Positions 10,041 through 64,000 of a stretch of DNA of 64,000 nucleotides are shown in pieces. The stretch is from Allofournierella massiliensis (GTDB taxonomy: Bacteria > Bacillota > Clostridia > Oscillospirales > Ruminococcaceae): NCBI RefSeq assembly GCF_004345265.1, contig NZ_SLUM01000002.1, positions 62,001 to 126,000 on the forward strand, read 5' to 3'. Every line of letters begins with the position of its first letter. Position 1 is the first letter of the stretch. The position numbers and the translations under genes were made by a program. The notes under the pieces are model-generated. The model saw nothing but the letters and a program-made list of their open reading frames with translations. It did no database searches and had not been told where the DNA came from.

Positions 10041-10886
10041 TTACGGGGTGCCAGGCTCTGCTCGTTCGTAGGGCAGCTCGTTGTCCACAAAGGGACAGTT
10101 GTATTCTTTTGCCAGCCACTCCGCTTGATCCTCCAAACCACGAAAATAGCTTCTGTCGCCCTTGTTGTAGATAACGTCGTACAACGGAACTAATTCAGGA
10201 TATTTTTTACGAATATAGTCTAAGATGTCTTTTTTGAATCCGCCACGCAGATTCAGATTTTCCAGCCATACCAGGTCGCACTGCTTTCTGACCCGGTGGA
10301 AGATTGCCTCAAAATCTGTGATGCCTGGAAAGACAGGGGCAATAAAGCATACTGTGCGAATGCCCGCATCATAGAGCCGCTTCATGGCATCCAGCCGTCG
10401 CTTGATGCTGACGGCATTGTCCATATCATTTTTAAAGCCTTCATCCAATGTATTAATCGACCAGGAAACCGTGACCTTTCCCAGTTCTTTCAGAAGGTCG
10501 ATGTCACGGATTACCAAGTCTGACTTGGTACAGATGAGAATTTCTGCCTCGCTGCCTCGGAGCTGCTCAAGAAGCTTTCGGGTGTTCTGGAACTGAGCCT
10601 CCTGGGGCAGATAGCCATCGGTCACAGAACCGATAACTACGCGCTGCCCTTTGTACTTTTGTGGATTTTTGATTACTGACCAATGCTTCACATCCAGGAA
10701 TGTGCCCCATGGTTCGGTGTGCCCGGTAAATCGCTTCATAAACGAGGCGTAGCAGTATTTACAGCCATGGGTACAGCCCACATAAGGATTGACGGAATAG
10801 CCGCCCACCGGCAGGGTGGATTTTGTCATAATATTTTTGGTTTCGACACCCTGAATCAGAATGCTACTATCGTTCATTTCTGCCAT
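10041..10886 (-). CDS. SplB-like radical SAM protein
   Basis: 281 residues from ATG 10886, chosen because GGAGG precedes it; the frame is open further upstream only by overlap. The radical SAM cluster ligands are C38, C42 and C45 in CTHGCKYCYA, and GSVTDGYLPQE and TVSWSINTLDE match the core barrel of the SplB/Rv2578c group (spore photoproduct lyase-like). Substrate is unknown; none of the flanking genes points to UV repair. It overlaps the end of the upstream radical SAM gene by 13 bp, so the two are translationally coupled. Confidence 0.82.
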   Translation of the reverse strand: MAEMNDSSILIQGVETKNIMTKSTLPVGGYSVNPYVGCTHGCKYCYASFMKRFTGHTEPWGTFLDVKHWSVIKNPQKYKGQRVVIGSVTDGYLPQEAQFQNTRKLLEQLRGSEAEILICTKSDLVIRDIDLLKELGKVTVSWSINTLDEGFKNDMDNAVSIKRRLDAMKRLYDAGIRTVCFIAPVFPGITDFEAIFHRVRKQCDLVWLENLNLRGGFKKDILDYIRKKYPELVPLYDVIYNKGDRSYFRGLEDQAEWLAKEYNCPFVDNELPYERAEPGTP

Positions 10887-11563
10887 GTTTTCTGTTCCTC
10901 CAACACCCGGTAAAAGGCCGGGGGAAATTCCTGTACCATCTGTGTCTCTCCCATGATAGGAAGCAGATCTTCTTTCATGAATACCGGGATACCACGCGCA
11001 TGGGCCTGATGTGTCAGATTCCACACCCATTCCGGTTTCGATACGGATTTGCCCTTCCTATGTCCGGTCTCAGTTCCAATGACGATCCACTCAATTCCGG
11101 TAAAATCCACCACGCCAATATCATCAAACATAGGTTCAAAGGTCACATGATAGTGTCCGCCATGGATATGCTCCTGCAAAGTCTGGATACGTTTTTTCTC
11201 TTTGCTGGAGGTAACAGTCACACCAAACCAAGCATTTCCCAGGGCAGTGGAAAATACAATCGTTTCCGGTTGCTTGGTCAAAAACAGATATTGGTGCTGC
11301 GGATTTTCAGTCATCTTGGCAAATATCTGTTCCCGCCAATCCGGCTCCCAGCGGGAAAAATCGCTCATCCCGGTGAGCAGGAAATTCTGTGGGCGCTTTT
11401 TCTCCATCAGCCGTAGCTTATTGGGGAAAAATACCGGCTTTTCAAAGTCGTCAATCATGTGAAACCGTCGGACATTGTTTCTGGCATAGCAGTAGCTGCA
11501 ACCAATCGTACATCCGATCACCAGATTCATATTCTGAATGCAGTCTTTAATACAGACAGCCAC
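10874..11563 (-). CDS. DUF5131 (phage Gp37/Gp68-like) radical SAM-type protein
   Basis: 229 residues. CTIGCSYCYA places cluster-type cysteines at 18, 22 and 25, and WFGVTVTSSKEKKRIQTLQ plus FEPMFDDIG and WIVIGTETG are hallmarks of the Gp37/Gp68 family, found in phages and bacteria with no proven reaction. Homologues are commonly near 230-260 residues, so this one seems full length. It overlaps the SplB-like gene, suggesting two radical SAM enzymes acting together. Confidence 0.82.
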   Translation of the reverse strand: MAVCIKDCIQNMNLVIGCTIGCSYCYARNNVRRFHMIDDFEKPVFFPNKLRLMEKKRPQNFLLTGMSDFSRWEPDWREQIFAKMTENPQHQYLFLTKQPETIVFSTALGNAWFGVTVTSSKEKKRIQTLQEHIHGGHYHVTFEPMFDDIGVVDFTGIEWIVIGTETGHRKGKSVSKPEWVWNLTHQAHARGIPVFMKEDLLPIMGETQMVQEFPPAFYRVLEEQKTWQK

Positions 11564-12765: not shown

Positions 12766-13563
12766 TTAAAACGACAAAGTTTCACCGTCAGCAGGGATCT
12801 TCACTTTAGAAAGAAGATTCTGTGATTCCAACTTTTCACGTAAAGAGGTGCGAGAAAGAGAAGCATGTGCCACATTATCCATATGACTGATAATAATATC
12901 TGCTTCTGGAGCGTGTGCGATTACTTCCGCCACATCTGCGGCATCCATGATCAGTCTGCCAAAATCAACAAGTTCCGCAGCGCAGGCATTTAATATGATA
13001 ACGCCAGGCTGAAAGCGTCTCAAGCTTTTCTCTACCTGTTCATACCAAATGGTGTCCCCAGCGAGATAAAGAGTTTTTTCCTCTCCTTCCATCATAAAGC
13101 CCATAGCTGAACCACAGGGAATCGTCACGCCATGTCGTGCCGGTACATTTGTCACGGTTACTTCTCCAATAGAGAGACCAGACTGCGGTAAAATTCTTAC
13201 ATCCTTAAATCCCGACCGAACAAAAATCTGCGCGTCTTCATCATTTTGTACCAGTACAGGTGTTTCCTTGTTTAATACATTCCCAACTGTTCCGTCCATC
13301 TCCATATCAATATGATCCGGATGGATATGAGTAACAATATAATAGTCCACATCAGAAAGAATTTCATCAACAGTTGTGGGCAGCGGACAGATGGGCATGG
13401 AAATAAATGTTTTCTGCGAATCTGGCGTTTTAAATGGAATAGATTCCGGAAGTCCGGCAAAACAACCAAAACCGTCCTTGGGAGCGAGCCACGGATCAAC
13501 TAAAAACACCTTCCCACCATAGTGAATCTTAATGGTTGCATTTCGTATCTGTTGAATGAGCAT
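12766..13563 (-). CDS. UlaG-like metallo-beta-lactamase-fold hydrolase
   Basis: 265 residues. THIHPDHID gives the metal ligands H79, H81, D83 and H84; ARHG, LAGDTIWYE and IISHMDN supply the later His and Asp ligands. The overall layout (LIQQIRNATIKIHYGGKVFLVDP at the start) is that of UlaG/YtnP-like hydrolases. The substrate is not deducible. It may be the last gene of the sirtuin operon, 197 bp after the TIGR04076-like gene. A paralogue with an altered active site lies at 23788. Confidence 0.85.
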   Translation of the reverse strand: MLIQQIRNATIKIHYGGKVFLVDPWLAPKDGFGCFAGLPESIPFKTPDSQKTFISMPICPLPTTVDEILSDVDYYIVTHIHPDHIDMEMDGTVGNVLNKETPVLVQNDEDAQIFVRSGFKDVRILPQSGLSIGEVTVTNVPARHGVTIPCGSAMGFMMEGEEKTLYLAGDTIWYEQVEKSLRRFQPGVIILNACAAELVDFGRLIMDAADVAEVIAHAPEADIIISHMDNVAHASLSRTSLREKLESQNLLSKVKIPADGETLSF

Positions 13564-14069: not shown

Positions 14070-14204
14070 TATCAACCCTCCTTTCAAATTGTTTGGTGTC
14101 GTGCGTTTTTGTGCGTCTATCAGTATCAGATGTCAAAGCCTGTACGTTCTGTTCGAGAAAATAATGCCATCACTTATGGCCATTTTGAACTTACTCTGGA
14201 ACTC

Positions 14205-15041
14205 TCACACCTCGCATGCCGCCCGGAGAGCAGGCAGCAGCTCATCCAGCCGTCCGTCCAGTCCGAAGGACTTCTCCTGGATATTGTCCGCAATGTAGAT
14301 CTCTCCCAGATTGATAGTCACATAAGTCGCGTTTGGCTCGCCAGCCACCAGGCGCATCATTGGGGCCTTAATTAGCTGATTGCGCCAACCAATGCCCAGC
14401 TCCAGAACCATCAGCTTTTCCCCGTGATAGGTATTCAGAAAGTTCTGGAACCGTACCTGGGCAGCAACATCTGAAATCATTCTCTGACCCGCCCCCATGT
14501 GGATGTCCATGGGACCCCCGCACTTGGGACAGCGCGGCACCAACTCTGTAGGCACATGGCCGCCCTGTTCCACATCTGATAATTTTTCGGCCAACTCCAG
14601 ACTGGGATAGCGGGTGTCGTGGCAAGGGCGAGCACACTGCATAGTAATCCAGTTGCCCTCAATCTCATAGATTTTCGACGGATCGAAGCCACACAGTTCA
14701 AAGTGGCCTTCTCCGTTTGACGTGACGACAAAGTAATCTTTCTCTCCCACAATGGCCTTCAAATCCTTCATCACCGGCGTGGGCCGGTATTGTCCACAAT
14801 AATGATGGATGAGCCGGCCCCAGAAAGCCCATTTTTCCTCCTCTCTGGGCCATCCAGCCATCATTCCCTGCAAAATGCACCCTATGCCGTATTTCCGTTT
14901 GAAATCCCCAAACAGTCTTTCAAAGGCTGCATTGTCCGCAAACAAGTTCAGTCCTTCCGTGATGGACAGGCCGTTACTGGCCCCGATCAGGATAGCGTCC
15001 GCATCTTTAAATTTTTCTGCGATTGGTTTCCAATCAATCAT
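14205..15041 (-). CDS. SirTM-like sirtuin C, divergent active site
   Basis: 278 residues with GASNG at 20-24 in place of GAGIS, and a zinc ribbon C136, C140, C171, C174. In SirTM enzymes, which ADP-ribosylate lipoylated GcvH-like carriers, TTNxDxQF and a Gln replace the canonical TQNxD and His. Here even those are changed: TSNGEGHF (107-114) lacks the Asp, and E128 occupies the Gln position. It may be a regulatory or substrate-binding paralogue. It is third in a tandem of three, 12 bp after sirtuin B. Confidence 0.78.
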   Translation of the reverse strand: MIDWKPIAEKFKDADAILIGASNGLSITEGLNLFADNAAFERLFGDFKRKYGIGCILQGMMAGWPREEEKWAFWGRLIHHYCGQYRPTPVMKDLKAIVGEKDYFVVTSNGEGHFELCGFDPSKIYEIEGNWITMQCARPCHDTRYPSLELAEKLSDVEQGGHVPTELVPRCPKCGGPMDIHMGAGQRMISDVAAQVRFQNFLNTYHGEKLMVLELGIGWRNQLIKAPMMRLVAGEPNATYVTINLGEIYIADNIQEKSFGLDGRLDELLPALRAACEV

Positions 15042-15053
15042 GCTCTTTCTCCC

Positions 15054-15935
15054 CTATTTTACTTTTGTTGCGCTGGATCGCTTCGGACGAAGAGCAGCCA
15101 GCGTTTCCGCCAAATCTCCTTGCAGATACAGACTGCGTCCCCTCAGATGCTCTGGCACATGCGATGCCTCTCGATTGAGACAAGCATAGAAGACGTTTTC
15201 GTTTTTGGCCGTAAGCTCCCAGAAGGGCAGTTTGATAATACTGGGTGTCATCTCACCCACCCCAAGTTCCAACAGCAGAAGTTTCTGGTCGGACTTTTCC
15301 ATGATCCAGTGCCGCAGGAATCTATGGTAGCGGTTCAGATTGTCCTGCCAGAAGGGTCCCTCCAGGAAGGTATCGTCTCGCACCCAAGGAACCAGCACTC
15401 GCCCGCAATCCGGGCAACGTGGAACAGCCTCTTCCGGCAGGCGAACCCCTATCAAGCGATCGGTCAGTTCCTTCACCAGCTCGCGGTTTTCCCAAATGTC
15501 GTCCCGGCAGGGCTGACTGCACTGACAGTAGCTGAAGTCTCCCTGAAAAGCGCAAATTTGTTGCTGAGGAAATACCCGAAAAAACTGCTGATCCACATTA
15601 GTGGTCAGCACAAAGACGGGTTTATCCGCAACAAGTGCTTGCAGGTCCAGATAGGGCTGCCCTGTAGGGGCTTCCCACATGAAGCGCATATATTGGCTGT
15701 AATACCCCCACTGTTCCCCATAGCTGGAAAAGCAGTGGTAGAAACCAGCCAGTGGCGAGGTAAACGCATACTGTTCTCGAAAGGGAGCCAATGTCTCCGA
15801 AAGCTCCGGTGACCAGTGATAGTGGTTGTATCCGGCCGCGCTTGACAGGCCGGAGCCACCACCGATCACGATGGCATCTGCTTGATCGATGCGCTCGGCA
15901 AGTTCCCGAAGCGCTGCCTGGTTTCCACCGCTCAT
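15054..15935 (-). CDS. SirTM-like sirtuin B
   Basis: 293 residues. GGGSGLS (25-31) is the nucleotide-binding loop, TTNVDQQF (111-118) the NAD ribose motif of class M sirtuins, Q131 in FQGDFS the residue replacing the canonical His, and cysteines at 139 and 143 plus CPDC downstream form the zinc site. Its ATG overlaps the stop of sirtuin A (ATGA), so translation is coupled. NAD-dependent mono-ADP-ribosylation is the known family activity; the target here is unknown because no GcvH-like, LplA or macrodomain gene is nearby. Confidence 0.82.
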   Translation of the reverse strand: MSGGNQAALRELAERIDQADAIVIGGGSGLSSAAGYNHYHWSPELSETLAPFREQYAFTSPLAGFYHCFSSYGEQWGYYSQYMRFMWEAPTGQPYLDLQALVADKPVFVLTTNVDQQFFRVFPQQQICAFQGDFSYCQCSQPCRDDIWENRELVKELTDRLIGVRLPEEAVPRCPDCGRVLVPWVRDDTFLEGPFWQDNLNRYHRFLRHWIMEKSDQKLLLLELGVGEMTPSIIKLPFWELTAKNENVFYACLNREASHVPEHLRGRSLYLQGDLAETLAALRPKRSSATKVK

Positions 15936-16921
15936 TGATTGTTATCTCCGCTTTCCATGGTGTCCCGTGCATCCCGTAGCACTTGGGCAATGTCGGCCAC
16001 AATGGCCATGCCCCTGTCCTCCAACTGCTTGGGCAGGAAGTTGTACTTGTCGTTGATGGCAATATATCGAGCATGAGGAAAGCTGAGAGTCAGATTCCAG
16101 AAGGGCTCCTGGATGAACATGGGAGTCAGTCGGCCAACGCCCAGCTCCAGGAACAGAATCTTACTGTCTTTGTGTTCCAGCACATAGCGAGAAATTTTTT
16201 CGTACTGTTCTTCGTATTTCGCTCCTTGGAGAAAATTTCCATATCCTCGCACCCAAGGGAATGCCTCACCGCCGCAGTGGGGGCATCGGGGAATGAGCTC
16301 CGTGGGAATCTTCGTGCCATCCCCCATAGCGTCCATCATCTCAGCCACCGGCTTTACCGCATCCCATGTGTCATCTGTGCAGCAGGCGGCGCACTGGAAG
16401 AACCGGTGATCGCCCTGAATTTCCGCAACCTTGTTCTCCGGGTAGAGCTTGACAAACTGGGTATCCTGGTTGGTGGTAAGGACGAAGAAGTCCTTGCCTT
16501 TCAGCAAAACGTCTAAATCCAGATAGGGATCACGCAAAGGGGCAGTCTGGGTAGTGTGAAGGAAGGTGGCAAGATACCCCCAATACTCTTCCCGGGTCTC
16601 CCAGGGGTGCATCATCCCTGCAAAAGCGCCTTTGAAGTGATACTTTTCAGCAAAAGGTCGGAAATATTTCCGGTAGGAGTCGTTGTCCTCATAGTAAAAA
16701 TCTCCGCCACCAGCAGCGGACAAACCGGAGGCTCCGCCCACTACCACACAGTCGGCTTCCTTTACCTCCTGTACCAATCGATCAATCTGTTCGCCATACG
16801 GCAGCGGCTTTTTGTCAGTCAGCTGATAAGGCGTACTGCCGGAAGCATAGACAGGATAGTACCTGGAGTAATTCATCTGGGTCTGCGTAACCAACTCTTC
16901 ATAGAAGCTCATTTTCATCAT
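15932..16921 (-). CDS. SirTM-like sirtuin A, first gene of the operon
   Basis: 329 residues, longer than the other two by an N-terminal Tyr-rich extension of about 45 residues. GGASGLSAAGG begins at 62, TTNQDTQF is at 149-156, Q169 in IQGDH replaces the catalytic His, and CAACC plus CPHC form the zinc ribbon. All key positions expected of a SirTM are kept. It is divergent from the Rrf2 gene, with 119 bp between, and is probably under Rrf2 control. Confidence 0.82.
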   Translation of the reverse strand: MMKMSFYEELVTQTQMNYSRYYPVYASGSTPYQLTDKKPLPYGEQIDRLVQEVKEADCVVVGGASGLSAAGGGDFYYEDNDSYRKYFRPFAEKYHFKGAFAGMMHPWETREEYWGYLATFLHTTQTAPLRDPYLDLDVLLKGKDFFVLTTNQDTQFVKLYPENKVAEIQGDHRFFQCAACCTDDTWDAVKPVAEMMDAMGDGTKIPTELIPRCPHCGGEAFPWVRGYGNFLQGAKYEEQYEKISRYVLEHKDSKILFLELGVGRLTPMFIQEPFWNLTLSFPHARYIAINDKYNFLPKQLEDRGMAIVADIAQVLRDARDTMESGDNNQ

Positions 16922-16976
16922 TCCTTTTTGCTGGGTGTTATTTTTATTTTTACTTCCAACTTATCTTAGCATCCGC

Positions 16977-17015
16977 TTGCGCCGCTGTCAATATGTTGTT
17001 ATAATAAAAATAACA
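16977..17015 (+). promoter_or_regulatory. Promoter and probable operator of the Rrf2 gene
   Basis: TTGCGC (16977-16982), 17 bp, TATAAT (17000-17005). The -10 is embedded in an inverted repeat TGTTAT-N7-ATAACA (16997-17015). Rrf2 proteins often repress their own promoter, and this site lies in the intergenic region shared with the sirtuin operon. Confidence 0.65.
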
Positions 17016-17040: not shown

Positions 17041-17475
17041 ATGAAATACCCCACCCGCCTTAGCGATGCTGTTCATATCCTGGCCTTTATCGCTCTGTAC
17101 CCAGACTGCGACCTGACCAGCAATAAGCTGGCCGAGAGCGTTCAGACGAACCCTGCCTATGTGCGCCAGCTCATGTCTGCCTTGCGAAAGGGAGGGTTAC
17201 TGGTCAGCGTGAAGGGACATCCTCGCCCTTCTCTTGCCCGTGAGCCGGAAAAAATCACACTGCTGGATGCCTATCGGGCAGTAGAGGGCAACAAGCCCCT
17301 GCTCCATCAGGACATCCACACCAACCCCGCTTGTGGCGTGGGCGTAAACATCCAACTGGCACTGCGTGATTTTTACCTTGACATCCAGAACACAGCGGAA
17401 AAACGAATGCAGGAAATTACACTGAAAGATGTGCTGGAACAATATCGCATGAAGTTAGAAGGGATTCACACATGA
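17041..17475 (+). CDS. Rrf2-family regulator
   Basis: 144 residues with AAAAAGGAGA ahead of ATG 17041. RLSDAVHILAFIALYP and TSNKLAESVQTNPAYVRQLM form the Rrf2 helix-turn-helix, and GHPRPSLAREPEKITLLDAYRAVE the wing and dimer helix. Only one Cys (in NPACGVG) lies in the effector region, so it does not look like a three-Cys iron-sulfur IscR. It overlaps the patatin gene by 4 bp (ATGA) and faces the sirtuin operon. Confidence 0.88.
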   Translation: MKYPTRLSDAVHILAFIALYPDCDLTSNKLAESVQTNPAYVRQLMSALRKGGLLVSVKGHPRPSLAREPEKITLLDAYRAVEGNKPLLHQDIHTNPACGVGVNIQLALRDFYLDIQNTAEKRMQEITLKDVLEQYRMKLEGIHT

Positions 17476-23787: not shown

Positions 23788-24576
23788 TTGAAACTGACGC
23801 AAATTCGCAATGCCACCGTCCTGTTGGAATATGCCGGAGTTCACTTCCTTATTGACCCCATGCTTTCTCCCAAAGGCACCCTGCCCCCTTGTCATAGCCG
23901 GGTACGTCCTGAGGCCCGTAATCCCCTATGTGAACTGCCCTGTCCGGTTGAGGTACTCTTGGAGGCAGACGCAGTCATTGTCACCCACCTCCATCCCGGA
24001 CATTTTGACCAAGCGGCAGCTCAGTTACTTTCCAAAACAAAACCGATCTTTGTGCAGAATTCCCGGGATGGAGAGGTACTCCGGTATTATGGTTTTCAAC
24101 AGGTCACAGTTTTGAATGCTGATACGATTTTCTCCAACATTACTCTAACCAAAATTCCCGGACGATATGGAAATTGGGATGAGGAAATGCTGGACCACGC
24201 GGGCAGTGTGTGTGGGGTGATTTTCCAAGCATCCGATGAGCCTTGCCTATACGCCACAGGGGACACCGTCTGGTATCCTGGTGTGGAGCAGGCCGTCCGA
24301 ACATTTCATCCCCAAGTGGTTTTGGCCAACGCCGGAGGAAATATGGGGTGGCAATATCAGAGCAATATGGGAACAGAAGATGTATTGGCTCTGCACCGGG
24401 CAGTTCCTTCTGCCCTCATCGTAGCCACCCACATGGAAGACCTGAATCACTGGACCCTGTCCCGTCAGCAACTGCGAGACTTCGCCCAAAAAAAAGGGTT
24501 TCTTTCTAAACTTCGTACACCCGCAAATGGTGAAAGTATTTGCATTTTCAAATCTAAGATACGTAATTCACCCTGA
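23788..24576 (+). CDS. UlaG-like metallo-beta-lactamase-fold protein with altered metal site
   Basis: 262 residues from a TTG at 23788, supported by AGAAGGTGA upstream and by alignment with the paralogue at 12766 (both begin with QIRNAT after four to six residues). THLHPGHFD carries H67, H69 and H72 but G71 replaces the Asp ligand. Later ligand segments are ATGDTVWYPG and VATHMED, still present. Metal binding may be limited to one ion, or activity lost. It follows the GH3 gene and a terminator. Confidence 0.8.
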   Translation: MKLTQIRNATVLLEYAGVHFLIDPMLSPKGTLPPCHSRVRPEARNPLCELPCPVEVLLEADAVIVTHLHPGHFDQAAAQLLSKTKPIFVQNSRDGEVLRYYGFQQVTVLNADTIFSNITLTKIPGRYGNWDEEMLDHAGSVCGVIFQASDEPCLYATGDTVWYPGVEQAVRTFHPQVVLANAGGNMGWQYQSNMGTEDVLALHRAVPSALIVATHMEDLNHWTLSRQQLRDFAQKKGFLSKLRTPANGESICIFKSKIRNSP

Positions 24577-55821: not shown

Positions 55822-57246
55822 TCAGGCACGTCGCACCACGCGCAATGCCATATTCGCCACAAACGCTACATCCTTACGTTTCATAAACAGATAGATTAAA
55901 TATGCCACAGCATAGATAGACAAGCCTGCAATTCCGCCTACAAACCAGCTGGCAACAATGAAAATGACCGTCAATGCAAGTTCCAGAGCCATATCCATTT
56001 TCACATTTACATCTAGCACCGTGGAAAGAAACAATTCTGCAAATACACACCGGAACGCCAGCAGGAATACAATCGATGCAACTGCCAGATCCAGATTGTG
56101 CAGCCAGTAAGTGGTGATCAGTGTAGTAATTACACTGAGAGAAACAGTAACAATATTGATCATCAACAGCCATTTCTCTTTGTGCAACGCTTTTAGATAC
56201 GGTTCGATAATCATGCTGGTTTTACTAGAAAATACGCACATAGGGAAAAGTATTGCCATGTACCTCAAGCTCTCACTATATTCTGGTAACCATATAGACA
56301 ACAAGGTGTTCATCGGTAAATAAAATACTAATGCTCCTAAAAGCACAACCATTATGCAGCATCGCGAAACAGTATATACCGTACCAAGTTGTTCTGATTC
56401 AGATCTTCGAAGTGTAGGAAGCATAATAGTTGCCACAGCATTTATAAAAACCATCAGTAAATTTGCAACAGAAATTGTTAGCGATACTTTTCCAAACACT
56501 TCCACACTCCATTGCTTTTCAATTCCAATTCGGACTATTCCAACAATCAGATTTCCAGCTAATGTGGCAAATAAAATTTTTACCCCTATGTTAATATTCT
56601 CCGCACTTTCCAATAGAACTGCTTTCTCGAATATTTTCTCGTTCCGAAAGCGAATCAAATTTAAATCTTTTAGAGAAACCACACAATAAATAGACGAGCA
56701 TATGTATCCTAAAACAATTGATAATATATACCAATAAAACCTTTGAACTCCAATAACCAGAAGACAAATTGAGCCAAAAAGATAAACGCTCTTCTCTATA
56801 ACAATGCATGTCGCAAAATCTTTAAATCTGCTGGTTGCTTGAAGTATGTCCAACATCATCAATCTAGGAATAATCGGAATTAGTGAAACTGAGCACAAGA
56901 TCATAACTAGTTTTTTTTCAGTATCGTTAATAAAGCAAACTGAAAGTCCACCAAGAACACCAGTTAAAAAACATTCCAATATTGCACAAATTTTAATCTG
57001 TTTCCTCAAACTTTCTTTGTCAATTTCGGAATAATCCTTTCCCGCATAATTCACTAATATTCCTTCTGGCCAACCAAAAGCTGCTATTCCAATATATGTA
57101 CTATAAAAAACGTATAATTGTACCAGACTATACTCTCTTACACTAATCGCCTTCGGTAAAACAAGAGTAACAACCATCGACACTAATAAGGTAATTACAT
57201 TAGAACCAAATGCATACACGAAGTTCAAAATGTTATTTCTATTCAT
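55822..57246 (-). CDS. Polysaccharide flippase (Wzx-like, MOP superfamily)
   Basis: 474 residues with about 12-14 hydrophobic segments. FVYAFGSNVITLLVSMVVTL is the first helix, SVREYSLVQLYVFYSTY and GWPEGILVNYAGKDY follow as in oligosaccharide exporters. It moves lipid-linked repeat units across the membrane. Base composition is much more AT-rich than in the flanking ugd and epimerase genes. Confidence 0.85.
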   Translation of the reverse strand: MNRNNILNFVYAFGSNVITLLVSMVVTLVLPKAISVREYSLVQLYVFYSTYIGIAAFGWPEGILVNYAGKDYSEIDKESLRKQIKICAILECFLTGVLGGLSVCFINDTEKKLVMILCSVSLIPIIPRLMMLDILQATSRFKDFATCIVIEKSVYLFGSICLLVIGVQRFYWYILSIVLGYICSSIYCVVSLKDLNLIRFRNEKIFEKAVLLESAENINIGVKILFATLAGNLIVGIVRIGIEKQWSVEVFGKVSLTISVANLLMVFINAVATIMLPTLRRSESEQLGTVYTVSRCCIMVVLLGALVFYLPMNTLLSIWLPEYSESLRYMAILFPMCVFSSKTSMIIEPYLKALHKEKWLLMINIVTVSLSVITTLITTYWLHNLDLAVASIVFLLAFRCVFAELFLSTVLDVNVKMDMALELALTVIFIVASWFVGGIAGLSIYAVAYLIYLFMKRKDVAFVANMALRVVRRA

Positions 57247-57252
57247 ATATCA

Positions 57253-57780
57253 TTATTCCCTATACTTCACCACTCGTCCCGGATTGCCCACAACAATTGC
57301 ATATGGAGGAACATCTTTTGTAACCACTGCACCTGCTCCAACAATACACCCTGTCCCCAGTGTTACTCCTGGTAATATAGTCACTCTTGCCCCAATCCAC
57401 ACATTATCTTCAATGTGGATCGGCTTACGTTCAGAAAATCCCTGTTCTATCATTGGGATATTCACATCTTTAAACTCATGATTTTGCGTATAACAAAGTA
57501 AAAATGGACCTATCATCACATCATTTCCAATACTAACCCCATAGTTAATAATAGAATCTCGACCTATCCCTGATCTTTCTCCAATCAACGTATCATCAGA
57601 TAATGCCACATTTCTTTCAATATTTACACTTTCTGGGATAAATCTTCCCGTCCATCTTTGGTAAGTAAATCTTCTAAATTTCCGTGCATAGTTTCCAAAT
57701 TCAATTCCTAAAAACGAACATCCCGATTCTGGAAGCTTCATAGCAATTACTTTGTAAAGCATTTTAAACACTATGTTCAT
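57253..57780 (-). CDS. Hexapeptide-repeat O-acetyltransferase
   Basis: 175 residues. IGERSGIGRDSIINYGVSIG, NDVMIGPFLLCYTQNHEF and IEDNVWIGARVTILPGVTLG, then TGCIVGAGAVVTKDVPPYAI are left-handed beta-helix repeats ending in the GAGAVVTKDVP...GNP motif; H in QNHEF is the likely catalytic residue. It presumably acetylates a capsule sugar. It overlaps the glycosyltransferase start by 4 bp. Confidence 0.9.
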   Translation of the reverse strand: MNIVFKMLYKVIAMKLPESGCSFLGIEFGNYARKFRRFTYQRWTGRFIPESVNIERNVALSDDTLIGERSGIGRDSIINYGVSIGNDVMIGPFLLCYTQNHEFKDVNIPMIEQGFSERKPIHIEDNVWIGARVTILPGVTLGTGCIVGAGAVVTKDVPPYAIVVGNPGRVVKYRE

Positions 57781-58883
57781 TGCAGAAACTCCTTATACCA
57801 ACTAAAAAGTTTTTTACAATTAGAATATAAATCCAATCCAGATTCCCTCAAATCATGTGCATAATAATTTCTTCCATCATTATATGCTTTTTGAATTGCT
57901 CGCTTCCACTCATTCAGCGGAGCGTCATTTTCTACCGTATATATATTTTTAGCAATTTTAGCCTCATCTTGTATATTACTTGAAACCACGCAAGGCAAAC
58001 CATTTGCCTGTGCTTCTAATAAAGCAATGCCAAACCCCTCACTTATTGATGGGAATATAAATACATCCATTGCTTGCAAATACGCTGACACATCCAGCCT
58101 CTTTCCAAGCAAAAGCAATCGATCTCGTAAATCATGGTCATTAGCATAAGACACTAAAGTTTTTTTCAAAGGCCCAGATCCTATAATTACTCCAACAACA
58201 TTATCCTCTTGCTTAAACTCATTAAGAATTCTTAATAACTGCATATGATTTTTAGCCGGCACTAAAGCTCCTATCGTTCCTATTACCAGCTTATCCTCCA
58301 CGCCGAGCTTCTTTCTTACAACGTCACGCTTATTTTCATCAAAAGCAAACTTCAGAAAATCAATGCCATTCAAAAAAACTTTACCTTTCTCTCTAAATGC
58401 TTCGCACCCAAATAAATAGTCGCCTGCACTTTTACTACACGCGAGCAAACCATCAGAGTACTTTGACATAAATTTTCTCATCACAACTTCATACGGCTTT
58501 CTTATAAAAGCATTTTTTGTTGGCAGCATAACGCCATGTGAATGCGAAATTATATATTTAACACCAGAACGTTTTGCTGCCAATGCAATAAGACCATTCG
58601 TAAAAGCCATATGAATATGAACAATATCATAATTTTGCCTTTGGTTTCTAAAAAACTTGTATAGATCTATGTAAAATTTAATTTTAGTTTTATTAGGCGC
58701 CGAAAGTTTAAACACATTTATTCCAGCCGTTCGTAGTTCTTCTTCATAATCAGACTCTTTTTCATCACAGATTAAACAATCGCAAATAACACTTTCTCTA
58801 TCTGCTGATAGGAGTATACTTTTCACGATGTTTTCTAATCCACCAATATTCATACTACGGACAACATGGAGCACTCTGATCAA
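57777..58883 (-). CDS. GT4-family glycosyltransferase
   Basis: 368 residues. VVRSMNIGGLENIVKSILLS is the GG nucleotide-side loop, IIGSGPLKKTLVSYA and FIFPSISEGFGIALLEAQAN, with the EGFGIALLEA catalytic signature, mark a GT-B retaining enzyme. It probably adds one sugar of the repeat unit on the cytoplasmic face. Confidence 0.9.
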   Translation of the reverse strand: MIRVLHVVRSMNIGGLENIVKSILLSADRESVICDCLICDEKESDYEEELRTAGINVFKLSAPNKTKIKFYIDLYKFFRNQRQNYDIVHIHMAFTNGLIALAAKRSGVKYIISHSHGVMLPTKNAFIRKPYEVVMRKFMSKYSDGLLACSKSAGDYLFGCEAFREKGKVFLNGIDFLKFAFDENKRDVVRKKLGVEDKLVIGTIGALVPAKNHMQLLRILNEFKQEDNVVGVIIGSGPLKKTLVSYANDHDLRDRLLLLGKRLDVSAYLQAMDVFIFPSISEGFGIALLEAQANGLPCVVSSNIQDEAKIAKNIYTVENDAPLNEWKRAIQKAYNDGRNYYAHDLRESGLDLYSNCKKLFSWYKEFLQ

Positions 58884-58905
58884 TTATCTTCATCTCCTAT
58901 CTAAG

Positions 58906-60021
58906 TTATGACAAAAATTCTGTATACGAAAATATTGTCTGGTAATTCTCATAACTAAATTTTCCGTCATTGTTATAGTAAGTATTCCAAAATATAAAAA
59001 CACTTACCAAAATAACACCCAATACCGACACAACTCGAAGTGCTCTTTTCCGTATAACAGAAATCAGCAAAGGAATAACGATTATTACTGTCGGCATGAA
59101 ATAATAAACGATTCTAAAAGTTTGAATTAGGGCCGGGGAGTTAATCATTAGCACAAAATAGCAAAATGTCATATTGACCCAGAAACAATTCATTTCGTCA
59201 AATTCCAATATTCTTTCATAAAACACAATCAACAAAACAAGTAACACAAAGGAAAACACCATGTGTGTAAGCGATCCTTGATTCTCTCCATACTGTGTCC
59301 CTATAAACTCTCTACCATACTCTGTTTTCTCAATTATTTTAGAAAGTCCAAATATCGTAAACGGGCACAGTACTACTGTTCCAATTGTGATTTTGATAAG
59401 GAACGCCTTAGAAAGCCTCACCAACGAAAAGCAAAAGCAAATAACACATAACAGAGCAGATGAATGTGCCATAAACGATAGTATAAACATCAAAACTATT
59501 CGCCAATTTATTCGCCGTTCTCTTTTATTTAACAGTTCACAATATGCTATCAATAAAAAACTGATTGCCAATGCCTGTTTCAAAGCTCCAAACGCAAAGA
59601 AAAACAAATCTGTTGTCAGGAACAAAAACACACTTATAGGAGTATTTGATGAGCATCTATAAACCAAATTAAAAAAAGCAACTATATAAATTAGGCCAAG
59701 AAAAAAAACCCACCAAAAATATGGAATTTTCAAATAGCAAAACAATTTTGTTAGGAGCGAAAACAAAGGATCTGTCTCATAAGGTTGTGTCGGATCATTT
59801 AAAAGCAATCTATATATTTGAGGATATGTACCAACATACCAATTGGCATCTATTCCAACTCCCCATCTTAACAAAAAAACAAGTGCAATCGGTAAGCTGG
59901 CAATCGCAAAGCTTGACGCTTTCCTCACTTTCACAGTACAAAACCCTTTCTGAACACTTCGTACAGAAAACAGGCATGTTAACGCAATAGCGACAAAAAA
60001 TGCAAAATAGTAATTCAGCAT
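58906..60021 (-). CDS. EpsG-family polysaccharide polymerase
   Basis: 371 residues, about ten hydrophobic segments. LLRWGVGIDANWYVGTYPQI and YETDPLFSLLTKLFCYLKIP are the EpsG signature (GxDxxxY...EPLF). It polymerises repeat units outside the membrane (Wzy role). Only one such gene is seen in the locus, which supports assignment as the polymerase. Confidence 0.85.
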   Translation of the reverse strand: MLNYYFAFFVAIALTCLFSVRSVQKGFCTVKVRKASSFAIASLPIALVFLLRWGVGIDANWYVGTYPQIYRLLLNDPTQPYETDPLFSLLTKLFCYLKIPYFWWVFFLGLIYIVAFFNLVYRCSSNTPISVFLFLTTDLFFFAFGALKQALAISFLLIAYCELLNKRERRINWRIVLMFILSFMAHSSALLCVICFCFSLVRLSKAFLIKITIGTVVLCPFTIFGLSKIIEKTEYGREFIGTQYGENQGSLTHMVFSFVLLVLLIVFYERILEFDEMNCFWVNMTFCYFVLMINSPALIQTFRIVYYFMPTVIIVIPLLISVIRKRALRVVSVLGVILVSVFIFWNTYYNNDGKFSYENYQTIFSYTEFLS

Positions 60022-60022
60022 C

Positions 60023-61033
60023 TTATATTTTTATCAACCTCTTAGTTTTTCTAACCATCCCAAAGAAATAACAAATAAAAAACAGTTTTATCTTATGCTC
60101 ATTTCTAATCTCTTTAGCAAAAAAGCAATCATATGTAGTGTTTTCCAAATCAGACGCAGCTTTTTTAATCAGTTGGCCATCAAAAACAATTTCACAGTCC
60201 AATCTTGCTTCTTTAATTGATTCTGAAGAACAAATTCTAATAAAGTATTTTACAGTTGATTCAACAATTTTCTTATCTAGAGCTCTTTCGTCTAATTTCC
60301 AGTTCAAAAAAAGATCTCTCCATATTTTTAGAGACATTTCAGGCGTCCATTCTTTTTTAAACGAACGTTTAGTTACAGATTCTGCTCTCACATTATAAAG
60401 ATACTTCACATCATTAGTTACTTCGAATTTTTTTATAAATCTTATATAGCTTAAAACAAACAGCAAATCCTCCCCCATAGATTTTCCAACCGGGAACTCT
60501 AGCTTTGCTTCCTTTATTATTTTGCTTCGAAAACATTTATTTCCACATGAATTAAACAGCATTGGATTCTCACTCATTTGGAAAAGTGTCATTGCATCTT
60601 TCGCAATAGTATATGGGCCTTTAAACTTCCACTTTTTAGTAAGTCCTCCATATACCATAGCTGTTATAAAAAGATCAGTCTCTTTTGATCCCATGGCATT
60701 TACAGCACTTTCTAGATAGTTAGCTGAAAACTCATCATCCGCATCCAAAAAAGTTATATATTCTCCAACCGCTTTTCTTAAACCTTGGTTCCTTGCCGCG
60801 CTCACTCCTTTGTTATTCTGATTAATCACAAGAATTCTCTCATCATTTTCCGATAAGTTTCTCAATATATCTTCTGTTTTATCACTTGATCCATCATTTA
60901 CTATCACTAGTTGCCAATTTATATATGTCTGTTTTTTTACGGATTCAACCGTTTTTGTAATTGTTTTTTCAGCATTATAAGCTGGAACAATAATAGAAAC
61001 TATCGGTTCTGTTCGCCTTTCACTTGAATTCAT
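60023..61033 (-). CDS. GT2-family glycosyltransferase
   Basis: 336 residues. VSIIVPAYNAEKTITKTVES, IVNDGSSDKTEDIL and ITFLDADDEFSANYLE (the DxD) are the GT-A motifs, and MGEDLLFVLSYI the later acceptor-side ED. An inverting capsule glycosyltransferase, sugar unknown. Confidence 0.92.
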   Translation of the reverse strand: MNSSERRTEPIVSIIVPAYNAEKTITKTVESVKKQTYINWQLVIVNDGSSDKTEDILRNLSENDERILVINQNNKGVSAARNQGLRKAVGEYITFLDADDEFSANYLESAVNAMGSKETDLFITAMVYGGLTKKWKFKGPYTIAKDAMTLFQMSENPMLFNSCGNKCFRSKIIKEAKLEFPVGKSMGEDLLFVLSYIRFIKKFEVTNDVKYLYNVRAESVTKRSFKKEWTPEMSLKIWRDLFLNWKLDERALDKKIVESTVKYFIRICSSESIKEARLDCEIVFDGQLIKKAASDLENTTYDCFFAKEIRNEHKIKLFFICYFFGMVRKTKRLIKI

Positions 61034-61048
61034 ATATCAAACCTCACT

Positions 61049-61951
61049 TCAAATTGAAAACTTCTCTCCAAAGAGATAATCTACGCTGTCTGGATCATAC
61101 TTCATATATCCGCTTCCATCAAAAAAAGTAATTTCCCCAAAAAGAATAGTTTCATCTTGACAATAGAAATCAATTCGGGCATGTGGAAAAGGCGTGGCTA
61201 AAATCTCTGCGTATTCGATCATTTTCTCATAAGGTTTCGGCTGACCAATTTCTCGCTTCAATGGTCTCTCATCAACTCGTTCAAAGGGCAACCGATTGAA
61301 CTGCATATCATAAATCCCCAATCCTGCCCCCTTGCCAAAATCTCGGTCTGCAATTACATATAAAAATTTTGCTTTTCCTGAAAAACAAAAGAACTTATAG
61401 TCAATTAATCCTCCGTCCTGCGGACTAGAAGGGATATATTTTTCAATCAAAATTCGATGCTTTGCATTGTCATACACCCATTCTCTGCCTGGATGTTTCC
61501 CCTTTACTGGCTGAGTCCAACGTGCAAGAAGTTCATAAAATTCTGTTTTGTTCAGCTTGCTCTTATCCTTGCAAATCAAAACATCATTTCCACCGCCGCC
61601 CAGTGTGTCTTTCGCAACAAATTGATCCGGAAGTTGATTCCAATCTACTTCCTCCGGGCTATTGTACACACCATAGATCGGATTCAGAATATTCTCCAAT
61701 CCAACCTGCTTCACATATTCCCGAACTTCGTATTTATCTACACACTTCGCCATCAGTGGATCGCGGTAATTGAGTTTGTACCACTGAAGTTTTTCTGTAT
61801 AACGCTGCGGATTTTTCAAATTCAACTTGCGTCCGGTCTTCAATCGGTACTGGAGCTTTACCATCCAAGCATCCGGCACAAAGCTCAAAATCCGCATCAA
61901 CTTAATGCGGACTGTTCTGCTTTTAATCAGCTTTTTATAATCCATTTTCAA
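61049..61951 (-). CDS. TupA-like ATP-grasp protein
   Basis: 300 residues. LNLKNPQRYTEKLQWYKLNY is the family hallmark, FVAKDTLGGGGNDVLICKDK the ATP-grasp glycine loop, and FCFSGKAKFLYVI and FGEITFFDGSGYMKYDP the later metal-binding segments. TupA-like proteins are thought to attach amino acids to polysaccharides, as in teichuronopeptides; the substrate here is inferred to be a uronic acid in the capsule. Confidence 0.85.
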   Translation of the reverse strand: MKMDYKKLIKSRTVRIKLMRILSFVPDAWMVKLQYRLKTGRKLNLKNPQRYTEKLQWYKLNYRDPLMAKCVDKYEVREYVKQVGLENILNPIYGVYNSPEEVDWNQLPDQFVAKDTLGGGGNDVLICKDKSKLNKTEFYELLARWTQPVKGKHPGREWVYDNAKHRILIEKYIPSSPQDGGLIDYKFFCFSGKAKFLYVIADRDFGKGAGLGIYDMQFNRLPFERVDERPLKREIGQPKPYEKMIEYAEILATPFPHARIDFYCQDETILFGEITFFDGSGYMKYDPDSVDYLFGEKFSI

Positions 61952-61972
61952 ATTTCCTCAGATATAAATCAT

Positions 61973-63085
61973 TTACTTTTCAGTCTGATTCAGCTCGCTC
62001 AAATACGCATCCACCACAATCTGGCGGTCAAATTCCCGTTCAATCTTAGCTCGACCTGCAAGGCCCATATCTCGCCGCTGTTCCCAGTTCAATGCAAGAA
62101 ATTTTTCAATCTGCTTTACCAGATCCTGCGTATCTTTTTGTTTGCAAATAAATCCATTTACACCATCATCAATGATTTCCCGGCATCCACTGCGGTCCGT
62201 TGTGATTAGTGGGCGGCCACAGGCTGCACTTTCCAGCAAAACATTGCTCATTCCTTCCGGGTAATAAGTGGGGTGGATCGTACAACTGCTCTGCATCTGA
62301 TACGGCAGCAAGTCCTTTTGCTGTCCGTGATACTGGATCACACCCTCACGAGTCAGTTCATCCAGTTTTTTCTGATACTCCGCATCATCACAAACTCCCA
62401 GCACATGAAACACTGCCTCCGGATGGTTCTGCCGAATGATTCGTGCTGCCTCGGTATACTGATCAATCCCTTTCTCTTTCAAAATCCGGGCCATAAACAG
62501 GAAGTTGACCTGCTCATCGTGAGGATACGGCAACACATGATACTGACTCGTATTTACACCTGAGCCAGGCAGCAGTCCTTGTTTATCCAGCGCAATTCCA
62601 TGCTTACGGAAAAACTCCTGATTTTCGGTATTCTGAAAAAACACCTTTTGTGCTTTACGCGTCGCCAACCGATATAACATAAGCGTTACAAACTGAAGCG
62701 GACCGGGATTTTCCACCGCTGTGCCCAATCCGGATACATTCATTACGCACGGAACCCCGCAACTGGCTGCAGCCATACCTCCGTAAATGTTCGGTTTGAT
62801 TGTGTAAGTAAACATCATATCCGGACGAATCTGCCGCAGAATTTTTTTGTAATTCTGCATCAGCTTTAAATCCGTCAGAGGATTGGTTCCATGACTGGAA
62901 ATCGGCGTATCAATATAATGGCATCCCATCTTTTCAGCAGTGGTGTAACCATCGCCAAACTGACTTTGAGGGAAAGAAACATACACCTCATGGCCCTCTT
63001 CAACGAGTTGCTCCACTAGCTCTTTGCGGAAGCGAAAAATCACCATTTCACTATTGCCGGCCAAAAGCACTTTTTTCTTATTCAC
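61973..63085 (-). CDS. GT4-family glycosyltransferase (CapM/EpsD-like)
   Basis: 370 residues from GTG 63085, chosen for AGAGGGG directly upstream; the longer frame to 63160 overlaps the previous gene. KKKVLLAGNSEMVIFRFRKE opens the protein and EGMSNVLLESAACGRPLITT is the GT-B signature. TPISSHGTNPLTDLKLMQNY is typical of EpsD/CapM enzymes adding the second sugar after the initiating transferase. Confidence 0.9.
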   Translation of the reverse strand: MNKKKVLLAGNSEMVIFRFRKELVEQLVEEGHEVYVSFPQSQFGDGYTTAEKMGCHYIDTPISSHGTNPLTDLKLMQNYKKILRQIRPDMMFTYTIKPNIYGGMAAASCGVPCVMNVSGLGTAVENPGPLQFVTLMLYRLATRKAQKVFFQNTENQEFFRKHGIALDKQGLLPGSGVNTSQYHVLPYPHDEQVNFLFMARILKEKGIDQYTEAARIIRQNHPEAVFHVLGVCDDAEYQKKLDELTREGVIQYHGQQKDLLPYQMQSSCTIHPTYYPEGMSNVLLESAACGRPLITTDRSGCREIIDDGVNGFICKQKDTQDLVKQIEKFLALNWEQRRDMGLAGRAKIEREFDRQIVVDAYLSELNQTEK

Positions 63086-63098
63086 GATATTTCCCCTC

Positions 63099-63890
63099 TT
63101 ACATCGCCCGGCGCTGCTGACGCAACACCTGAGTTTCTTCCTGGAACTGTGTAAATTCACACTGCTCTTTTTCCTTCTGAATCAGCTGTTCCTGTTGGTG
63201 ACGCACCTCATCCCGATGATGGTGTGCAGTTACACCTTCTTTGATGTCCTGGCGGCCCAGCACCTTCAGTACACTGTCGAAAAATACTTTCGCATCGAAG
63301 GCCATGCTCACATTCCTTAAGTACTCCCGATCGTAGAATACTTTGTCGTAGTCGTTCAGCAGATCGCGTCCATTGATCTGTGCCCAACCGGTGATGCCCG
63401 GCTTCAACTGATCCACCCCGTAGTACCGGCGCAGGAAGTGCACACTGCGCTCTTGGCGAATCAACGGGCGGGGGCCGATCAGGCTCATGTCTCCCACCAG
63501 CACATTGAATAGCTGCGGAAGTTCATCGATGCTAGTATCCCGCAGGAATCGGCCCAGTTTGGAAATATAGCTATCTGCATTCTGCAAATTTCCAGTGGAA
63601 GAGTACTTCGGCGCAGTGCTTTTCATTGTTCGGAATTTTACGATATAAAACACATGACTGTTCTGCCCCACTCGCTTCTGCCGAAAAAATACCGGTTCAT
63701 TGGGACTGCTCAGTTTCTGCAATGCTGCCACAAACAGAAACGGGATTGCCAGTACTACAAGTGCCATGCCAGAAACAACCATATCGAATATCCGCTTCAT
63801 TTTCAGATATCTCCGCTGTTCCGAAGTCAGCGGAATACGATGTTCCCGCATGATTCCTCTCATGGTTTTTGTTCTCAACTCTGTCTCCAT
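63099..63890 (-). CDS. Initiating sugar transferase (polyprenol-phosphate phosphoglycosyltransferase)
   Basis: 263 residues from ATG 63890 with GGGGAG upstream. One membrane hairpin (about 35-55) precedes the catalytic domain: FYIVKFRTMKSTAP, then DELPQLFNVLVGDMSLIGPR with the Asp-Glu dyad, and PGITGWAQINGRD. It places the first sugar phosphate on undecaprenyl phosphate. The C-terminus has an odd tail of about 45 residues, rich in His, Gln and Glu (TAHHHRDEVRHQQEQLIQKE), beyond the usual end. Confidence 0.9.
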   Translation of the reverse strand: METELRTKTMRGIMREHRIPLTSEQRRYLKMKRIFDMVVSGMALVVLAIPFLFVAALQKLSSPNEPVFFRQKRVGQNSHVFYIVKFRTMKSTAPKYSSTGNLQNADSYISKLGRFLRDTSIDELPQLFNVLVGDMSLIGPRPLIRQERSVHFLRRYYGVDQLKPGITGWAQINGRDLLNDYDKVFYDREYLRNVSMAFDAKVFFDSVLKVLGRQDIKEGVTAHHHRDEVRHQQEQLIQKEKEQCEFTQFQEETQVLRQQRRAM

Positions 63891-63914
63891 CCTTCTGCTC
63901 CCCTTATGCGTATT

Positions 63915-64000
63915 TCAAATTCCCAATCGCTGTAATTTTTCCCGTTTCTCTGTGGGCAAAGGTTTTTTCGCTCCCAGCTGGAGGGCTCTCCTCTGCTCAT
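63915..64000 (-). CDS. 3' end of a gene entering from the right edge
   Basis: An open minus-strand frame enters from the window edge and ends at TGA 63915-63917; its last residues are QLGAKKPLPTEKREKLQRLG, I. The basic, charged helix and spacing of 24 bp to the sugar transferase gene suggest an upstream member of the capsule operon. Only 27 codons are visible, so no identity can be given. Confidence 0.45.
   Translation of the reverse strand, partial: EQRRALQLGAKKPLPTEKREKLQRLGI

Follow-up and report, generated by a model that had tools for sequence, protein, structure and literature searches.

What could three adjacent SirTM-like sirtuins do in a genome where the usual partners of such enzymes are not found beside them? 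This question is raised by a stretch of 64,000 nucleotides of Allofournierella massiliensis (contig NZ_SLUM01000002.1, positions 62,001 to 126,000 of the forward strand), here called the window, which carries the sirtuin genes A, B and C in tandem. The best reading of this array is a macrodomain-independent, probably redox-controlled unit which would ADP-ribosylate a protein or consume nicotinamide adenine dinucleotide (NAD). All coordinates are those of the window, and loci gathered from other genomes are given by their L numbers.

Organization of the tandem sirtuin array

The three genes are placed head to tail in the order A-B-C.

15932..16921, minus strand: gene A, SirTM-like sirtuin of catalytic type, 329 amino acids (aa), the N terminus being extended by about 40 aa
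15054..15935, minus strand: gene B, SirTM-like sirtuin of catalytic type, 293 aa, optional in the family
14205..15041, minus strand: gene C, putative partner sirtuin with a rebuilt active site, 278 aa

The frames of A and B overlap by 4 nucleotides and C starts 12 nucleotides after the stop codon of B. A preliminary description of the window had proposed three translationally coupled or closely spaced SirTM-like paralogues, and both the spacing and the identity agree with it. Over their full length, all three proteins found the SirTM of S. pyogenes (5a3a) as best solved-structure match, with expect values (E) of 6e-44, 1e-39 and 8e-39 for A, B and C, followed in each case by a fungal macrodomain-SirTM fusion (8rsn). 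The Pfam SIR2 model gave 17 bits for A (cut-off 24) and no match for B and C. In the 3.73-Mb window genome, A, B and C were the sole matches to A at E 0.01. An open frame of 340 aa on the plus strand (14790-15812), antisense to B and C, was judged a by-product of codon use.

Active-site residues of A, B and C

To compare the active sites, 146 SirTM-like proteins of at least 250 residues from the gathered loci were aligned after removal of exact duplicates. In the S. pyogenes enzyme (SpySirTM), mutation of Asn118, Gln137 or Arg192 lowers the activity dramatically and the change of Gln137 to His abolishes it (PMC4518038). The equivalents of Asn118, Asp120, Gln137 and Arg192 are all retained in window A and B; in A they are N151, D153, Q169 and R225, and its zinc cysteines are at 177, 181, 213 and 216. 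The motifs of the three proteins are TTNQDTQF...IQGD in A, TTNVDQQF...FQGD in B and TSNGEGHF...IEGN in C. The earlier observation that A and B keep TTNxDxQF and the Gln, while C is altered at the Asp and the Gln, is thus exact, the Asp having become Glu. C keeps the Asn118 equivalent and has Glu at both 120 and 137. Two further changes in C had not been described, namely the loss of the Arg192 equivalent and the replacement of the GVGx[NT]TP loop by GIGWRNQ. Together with ASNG, TSNGE-G-H113 and E128, this loop makes up the rebuilt site. The class motif GVGx[NT]TP is also unmatched in A (GVGRLTP) and B (GVGEMTP). The HG of the catalytic histidine is QG in A and B and EG in C.

These differences divide the aligned proteins. 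All 102 proteins with TTN have Gln at 137 and Asp at 120, and 101 of them have Arg192 (the exception is L041). In each of the 44 proteins with TSN, here called C-type, position 137 is Glu and a His stands two residues past position 120, and all of them lack Arg192 as well as the TP of the pyrophosphate loop. Of 55 single SirTMs, 54 keep [NT] in the class motif, compared with none of 47 A or B proteins. ASNG, TSN, His113, Glu128 and the loop Asn are invariant in the C alignment of 29 rows. Four of the 44 C proteins (L083 and L138-L140) lack a complete set of zinc cysteines, which the other 40 have; in all three Lactobacillaceae A proteins these cysteines are lost. Position 120 is Glu in 39 of 44 C proteins and Asp in the other five, which come from Paenibacillus, Mesobacillus and Lactobacillaceae. 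Since these five keep Asp120, the change of Gln to Glu at 137 is probably the older one in the C lineage.

The preliminary description had called the third protein inactive or altered. The alteration is clear, being fixed across relatives, whereas inactivity is only possible, as the new residues are invariant. C should not repeat the SirTM reaction because Gln137 and Arg192, which SpySirTM needs, are missing; it must nevertheless have some function because the replacements are fixed.

Predicted fold of A and C

Single-chain models of A and C were built with AlphaFold2 and compared structurally by VIA-align. The mean confidence (predicted local distance difference test, pLDDT) was 95.8 for C and 93.6 for A. 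Against 5a3a, the C model gave Z 31.9 with a root mean square deviation (rmsd) of 2.3 over 276 aligned residues, and the A model Z 31.3 with an rmsd of 2.6 over 279. The fungal SirTM 8rsn followed with Z 28.4 for C and 27.9 for A, and the best ordinary sirtuin reached 20.6 and 19.4, respectively. The models thus suggest that the SirTM fold is retained in C despite the altered active site.

Conservation of the A-C pair

One scan of genome_contigs with C returned 114 relatives, of which 80 were kept. C-type tandem arrays made up 42 of these 80 loci, in Lachnospiraceae, Oscillospiraceae and other gut Clostridia. Plasmid records contributed A-C pairs from Paenibacillus, Mesobacillus and Lactobacillaceae. 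As orthologous arrays exist in other genomes, the window array is not a chance feature. The sample of 48 tandem loci used below consists of these 42, found with C-derived patterns, five plasmid records matched with C (taken from a longer list which holds further Lactobacillaceae records) and the window. It includes two fragmentary loci (L094, L120), two which start at or inside C (L073, L087) and the near-duplicates L072, L076, L077 and L093; L036 and L037 were removed as duplicates of L056 and L062. The 56 single-SirTM loci used for comparison come from three sources: what was left of the genome_contigs scan, the family search (17 stretches) and a Vibrio plasmid. The loci were fetched with C, so the sample is biased to C-bearing arrays, and an A without C could not appear in it.

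Among 44 typeable tandem loci, a full-length A or A plus B lies directly upstream of C in 39 and SirTM fragments in five; no locus had neither. C is the last sirtuin of the array in the typed loci. Tree distances of A and C were correlated over 19 loci (r 0.89), and none of 2000 shuffles gave a value as high. Two whole tandem arrays were found in the chromosome of Faecalibacterium sp. I4-1-79 (L061, L080); in the second one, C has an interruption close to the end of its reading frame. The Lactobacillaceae plasmids L138-L140 encode longer C proteins of 439-444 aa. In the Levilactobacillus record that was scanned (L139), C is fused to a Cupin_5 domain, and in L140 pnuC, for a nicotinamide riboside transporter, lies about 4 kb upstream.

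To place the three proteins against known SirTMs, a maximum-likelihood tree was constructed from 73 rows, thinned of near-copies from the 146 (21 A, 6 B, 29 C and 17 single SirTMs). The four types formed four clades, each split from the rest by a branch with support of 98-100, and A and B were joined. A, B and C are therefore separate from the macrodomain-linked SirTMs in this phylogeny, which the preliminary description had proposed as a check. The labels had been assigned by motif before tree building, and for this reason a second, quick tree of 66 rows was made with the signature columns removed and L138-L141 left out; it recovered the same four groups with support of 94-100, which answers the circularity in part. 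Long-branch warnings were raised within A in the first tree, where the window type stands with Lactobacillaceae rows, and at the A/B junction in the second. The joining of A and B may thus be a long-branch effect.

Selection on the three genes was estimated by the ratio of nonsynonymous to synonymous substitution rates (dN/dS, Nei-Gojobori). For window C, compared with 6 orthologues, it was 0.07-0.15; with 5 orthologues each, A gave 0.04-0.15 and B 0.07-0.12. In the array of L062/L037, C is 88% identical to window C and A only 45-46% identical to window A. Because its changes are fixed and under purifying selection, C looks specialised rather than decaying. The idea of a single local triplication was not upheld: A and C form an old pair and B is an optional extra.

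The array is sparsely distributed. Of the 197 genomes sampled from the family, 3 had a triple array and 49 had any match. In the phylum sample of 398 genomes, 22 matched at E 1e-20; the coordinates listed show adjacent matches in the window genome only. A phage origin was considered and rejected, as a scan of viral_contigs with C gave no relative and 2 of 50,697 phage records matched distantly.

Macrodomain, GcvH and LplA partners

In Lactobacillales and Staphylococcaceae, SirTM is flanked by GcvH-L and LplA2; in other groups it can form an independent operon with a macrodomain (PMC4518038). The partner set which the preliminary description took as normal is thus that of the former groups and need not be present elsewhere. 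With one Vibrio macrodomain as query, a macrodomain was found within 3 kb of none of the 48 tandem loci and of 39 of the 56 single-SirTM loci, the latter count being a lower bound because of the one query and some short flanks. Two tandem loci carry a macrodomain farther off, at 5.9 and 9.1 kb.

The usual partners were reported as missing from the array, and this was borne out. In the window genome (96.8% complete) no nearby macrodomain, no GCV_H match over cut-off and no LplA-B_cat match was found. The best GCV_H match had 15.1 bits over 32 positions and was not taken as GcvH. The only macrodomain protein of this genome, of 347 aa, is unlinked to the array, has the MacroD-type motif GGGxDx3H and scores 146.7 bits against the zinc-type family NF003163 (cut-off 272). 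An unlinked standard locus with GcvH-L, LplA2 and zinc macrodomain, which could have served the array, was looked for in the window genome and not found.

The search was extended to 29 of the known tandem-bearing genomes, namely the window genome, two relatives and 26 reached through the loci, with completeness stated for 3 of the 29. GCV_H was over cut-off in 8 (4 full-length with more than 130 bits, 4 short matches of 22-26 bits), so its absence is not universal among them. A zinc-type macrodomain was over cut-off in 13 genomes, with 14 copies in all. Eight of these copies have a separate single SirTM as neighbour, and no copy shares a contig with a tandem array.

We looked for linkage to a macrodomain and for the GVGx[NT]TP motif; since neither was found, we call the array a SirTM-related system outside class M membership.

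The Rrf2 regulator and its control region

Upstream of A, a divergent regulator gene and an intergenic control region were found, both overlooked in the preliminary description.

17041..17475, plus strand: divergent Rrf2-family regulator, 144 aa (PF02082, 102.3 bits, cut-off 30)
16997..17015, between the Rrf2 gene and A: operator-like palindrome of 19 bp, TGTTAT-N7-ATAACA
16963..16991, minus strand: promoter-like site of A, TTGACA, spacer of 17 bp and TAAGAT, the -35 element lying 5 bp from the operator-like site
16936..16954, minus strand: a further, degenerate copy of this palindrome, located between the -10 element and A and nearer to the consensus in several relatives

A divergent Rrf2 gene within 3 kb was present in 30 of 48 tandem loci compared with 4 of 56 single loci; in any orientation the counts were 32 and 9. 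In four single-SirTM loci from Schwartzia, Veillonellaceae and Selenomonadaceae (L102, L103, L125 and L128), the divergent Rrf2 has the same Cys as the tandem-locus proteins. The link of Rrf2 and SirTM extends beyond the tandem unit. The operator-like site was found in all 28 tandem intergenic sequences with up to 2 mismatches and in 25 with up to 1. Single loci with a divergent Rrf2 gave a match at 2 mismatches in 1 of 4. The exact pattern TGTWATN7ATWACA occurs once in the genome, at this place. A reversed control pattern also occurs once, and for this reason the force of the site lies in its position and conservation and not in its number. At up to 2 mismatches the window has 6 matches against a mean of 2.2 by chance.

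The Rrf2 protein has Cys98, which is retained in the tandem-locus orthologues compared, and Cys23, which is not conserved. It scores 39.6 bits against NCBIfam HypR (cut-off 180). HypR of S. aureus senses oxidants by a Cys33-Cys99' pair (PMC10715087).

Neighbouring genes

Two further genes recur around the tandem arrays.

14101..14202, minus strand: remnant of an HD gene after C, 34 aligned residues with 56% identity and stop codons
17472..18332, plus strand: patatin-like phospholipase directly after Rrf2, a candidate only for a functional link

An HD gene lies downstream within 3 kb in 12 of 48 tandem and 0 of 56 single loci. A search of the window genome with the HD protein found that remnant alone. 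The HD protein gave 19.6 and 21.6 bits with Pfam HD (cut-off 22), and the name 'HD domain' is therefore based on the H/HD/D pattern and on database labels. One solved-structure match to an aminotransferase (E 0.019 over 43 residues) was taken as chance. The patatin gene beyond Rrf2 was likewise found in 12 of 48 tandem loci, the window included, and in 0 of 56 single loci.

On the megaplasmids of Paenibacillus and Mesobacillus, A and C are followed by HD, a nicotinate phosphoribosyltransferase (NAPRTase) gene and then an isochorismatase-family gene, which in Mesobacillus is preceded by a small gene. The best NCBIfam match of the Paenibacillus copy of the isochorismatase-family protein is nicotinamidase, with 40.9 of 174 bits and below cut-off. 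Such NAD-salvage neighbours, like the HD partner not mentioned before, would fit a recycling of nicotinamide released by a sirtuin.

Other features of the surroundings were also recorded. Two adjacent open reading frames (ORFs) at 10041-11563 have CxxxCxxC-like cysteine clusters and look radical-SAM-like by eye. Both reappear near some of the tandem arrays of other genomes. The same is true of an HxlR regulator, a flavin-reductase-like protein and a heavy-metal P-type ATPase; the region at 10041-11563 may be a shared insertion neighbourhood. Two related metallo-beta-lactamase-fold proteins flank the array at 12766-13563 and 23788-24576, and their counterparts in Gemmiger sp. An87 share one blast cluster. 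The end of the window (56001-64000) has a G+C content of 35-42%, compared with 46-55% elsewhere, carries a run of minus-strand ORFs and looks acquired.

Possible function of the array and its alternatives

The array is best explained, at somewhat short of an even chance, as a macrodomain-independent, Rrf2-controlled ADP-ribosylation unit in which A (and B, where present) would be catalytic and C a regulatory or substrate-presenting partner in a heteromer. The Rrf2 protein, as a probably redox-sensing repressor, would bind the 19-bp sites by the divergent promoter and keep A-B-C off. On derepression, A and B would consume NAD+, release nicotinamide and, through their Asn/Asp/Gln/Arg centre, ADP-ribosylate some protein that is not GcvH-L. 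C, which comes from the following cistron and has the same fold and a rebuilt nucleotide site, would join A in the heteromer; most likely it would bind NAD+ or ADP-ribose as a regulatory or substrate-presenting subunit without repeating the reaction of A. The HD-family hydrolase would be an extra part in some relatives, decayed in the window genome. A cascade of ADP-ribosylation, as suggested earlier, found no support, and a heteromeric pair fits the data at least as well.

Several points weigh against this explanation. The unlinked MacroD-type protein could be the eraser, and a zinc-type macrodomain is present somewhere in 13 of the 29 tandem-bearing genomes. Rrf2 is not unique to the tandem unit, being divergent also in 4 of the 56 single loci, and a full HD gene was not seen in 36 of the 48 tandem loci. 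The redox role is one that we infer from a HypR match and one conserved Cys, because that match lies below its cut-off. In L066, L078 and L108, two of which are metagenome-assembled genomes, the gene before C is disrupted within the contig while C itself is open, so an intact A may not be needed by C. Plain co-inheritance would equally yield the correlation of A and C distances. The invariant replacements in C, Glu128 and His113 included, fit a new chemistry as well as regulation. Our searches found no published test of activity, complex formation or substrate for the tandem group.

A new chemistry is the basis of the strongest rival, which we consider unlikely. C would be a built-in eraser or second-step enzyme, its Glu site turning the sirtuin fold into an ADP-ribosyl-hydrolase or a processor of NAD or ADP-ribose in place of the zinc macrodomain. 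The more specific claim, that a Glu-based C reverses or processes the ADP-ribosylation made by A, with writer and eraser sharing fold and operon and the macrodomain dispensable, is less probable still. Such a role is favoured by the lack of the macrodomain seen beside most single SirTMs, by the invariance of the Glu137 equivalent and of His113 and by the place of C at the end of the array. The position now taken by Glu sits by the nicotinamide ribose, whose 3'-OH is contacted by Gln137 in SpySirTM (PMC4518038). On the other side, the erasing could instead be done by the HD protein or by a macrodomain encoded elsewhere. We know of no sirtuin-fold hydrolase of an ADP-ribosylated protein, though no search aimed at one was made. 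The regulatory or substrate-presenting role of C is therefore our first choice and a Glu-based eraser or second enzyme our second.

It is improbable that A and C form a NAD+-depleting, defence- or toxin-like pair, that is, a NAD glycohydrolase whose members are each weak alone, as in FAM118A/FAM118B. Mutually dependent paired sirtuins have a precedent in these proteins (PMC12700824), and the patchy spread (1 of the 398 phylum genomes, 3 of the 197 family genomes), the plasmid carriage and the NAD-salvage neighbours on two Bacilli plasmids agree with such a role. However, FAM118 proteins are ThsA-like and depend on an active-site His (PMC12700824), which is absent in A, B and C. No PADLOC match was found for A, B or C at E 0.01, the scan of viral_contigs gave no relative of C, and the dedicated regulator and the long shared history of A and C look regulatory. 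As an anti-phage system the locus was rejected: HD gave no PADLOC match either, and the patatin gave a weak one (14.8 bits, E 0.0033).

An ordinary duplication, with three SirTM paralogues, a redundant or decaying third copy and the macrodomain elsewhere in the genome, is very improbable and largely refuted. The unlinked macrodomain of the window genome and the zinc macrodomains of other tandem-bearing genomes would suit it. Against it, the macrodomain of the window genome has a MacroD motif and a score below the zinc-type cut-off, and 8 of the 14 zinc macrodomains stand beside a separate single SirTM and none on a contig with an array. A triplication with a dying copy was rejected on the selection acting on C, on its fixed residues and on their wide conservation over Clostridia and Bacilli. 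Least probable of all is that A, B and C are NAD-dependent deacylases and not ADP-ribosyltransferases: database products read 'NAD-dependent protein deacetylase' and NCBIfam deacylase models give weak scores (25.1, 28.4 and 20.4 bits for A, B and C, cut-off 243), but the catalytic His is replaced by Gln or Glu in all three and the nearest solved relative is a SirTM without deacylase activity (PMC4518038).

A conserved SirTM-like system which stands apart from the substrate and the eraser known so far, and which retains a second sirtuin with special alterations, suggests that protein ADP-ribosylation or the use of NAD+ is controlled differently in gut Clostridia and some Bacilli. The unit, carried by certain bacteria of gut and soil, is compact and apparently equipped with a repressor and an operator of its own. 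The labels 'NAD-dependent protein deacetylase' and 'cupin domain-containing protein' are suggested to hide the nature of these proteins.

Comparison with known systems

The preliminary description knew of no account of an ADP-ribosylation cascade with a built-in inactive or altered member. Literature searches, with most subscription journals outside their reach, gave no account of the array, and no title or abstract was found on tandem SirTM-like pairs, on a Gln-to-Glu class or on a sirtuin/Rrf2/HD unit. Two-gene systems of sirtuin and macrodomain and macrodomain-less viral sirtuins are described in PMC9503650, and the tandem pair is not among them in the passages seen. In a 2024 paper GcvH-L is the sole known SirTM target, and the signalling is described as a SirTM/macrodomain couple (PMC11490716).

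The class M SirTMs of S. pyogenes and S. aureus (PMC4518038) are alike in fold, in the zinc site, in the Asn/Asp/Gln/Arg centre of A and B and in having no catalytic His. The tandem unit differs from them in the absence of an adjacent macrodomain, GcvH-L and LplA2, in its separate clades and in the GVGx[NT]TP motif, which is altered in A and B and lost in C. It adds a second sirtuin with Glu and without Arg192, Rrf2 in most loci and HD in some. The minimal SirTM/Zn-Macro pair and the fungal Mfs1 fusion (PMC11490716) resemble the tandem unit in that the SirTM stands outside a lipoylation operon and has no known target; there the eraser macrodomain is adjacent or fused, whereas none lies beside the tandem array. 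HypR of S. aureus (PMC10715087) is likewise an Rrf2 repressor with a Cys at about 98-99, but it uses Cys33-Cys99' and controls MerA, while the window protein has Cys23 and Cys98. FAM118A and FAM118B (PMC12700824) are also two sirtuin paralogues kept together, weak singly and active when mixed. They differ in being ThsA-like vertebrate proteins which form filaments and both have the active-site His, and by analogy they offer a precedent for paired sirtuins, of another kind.

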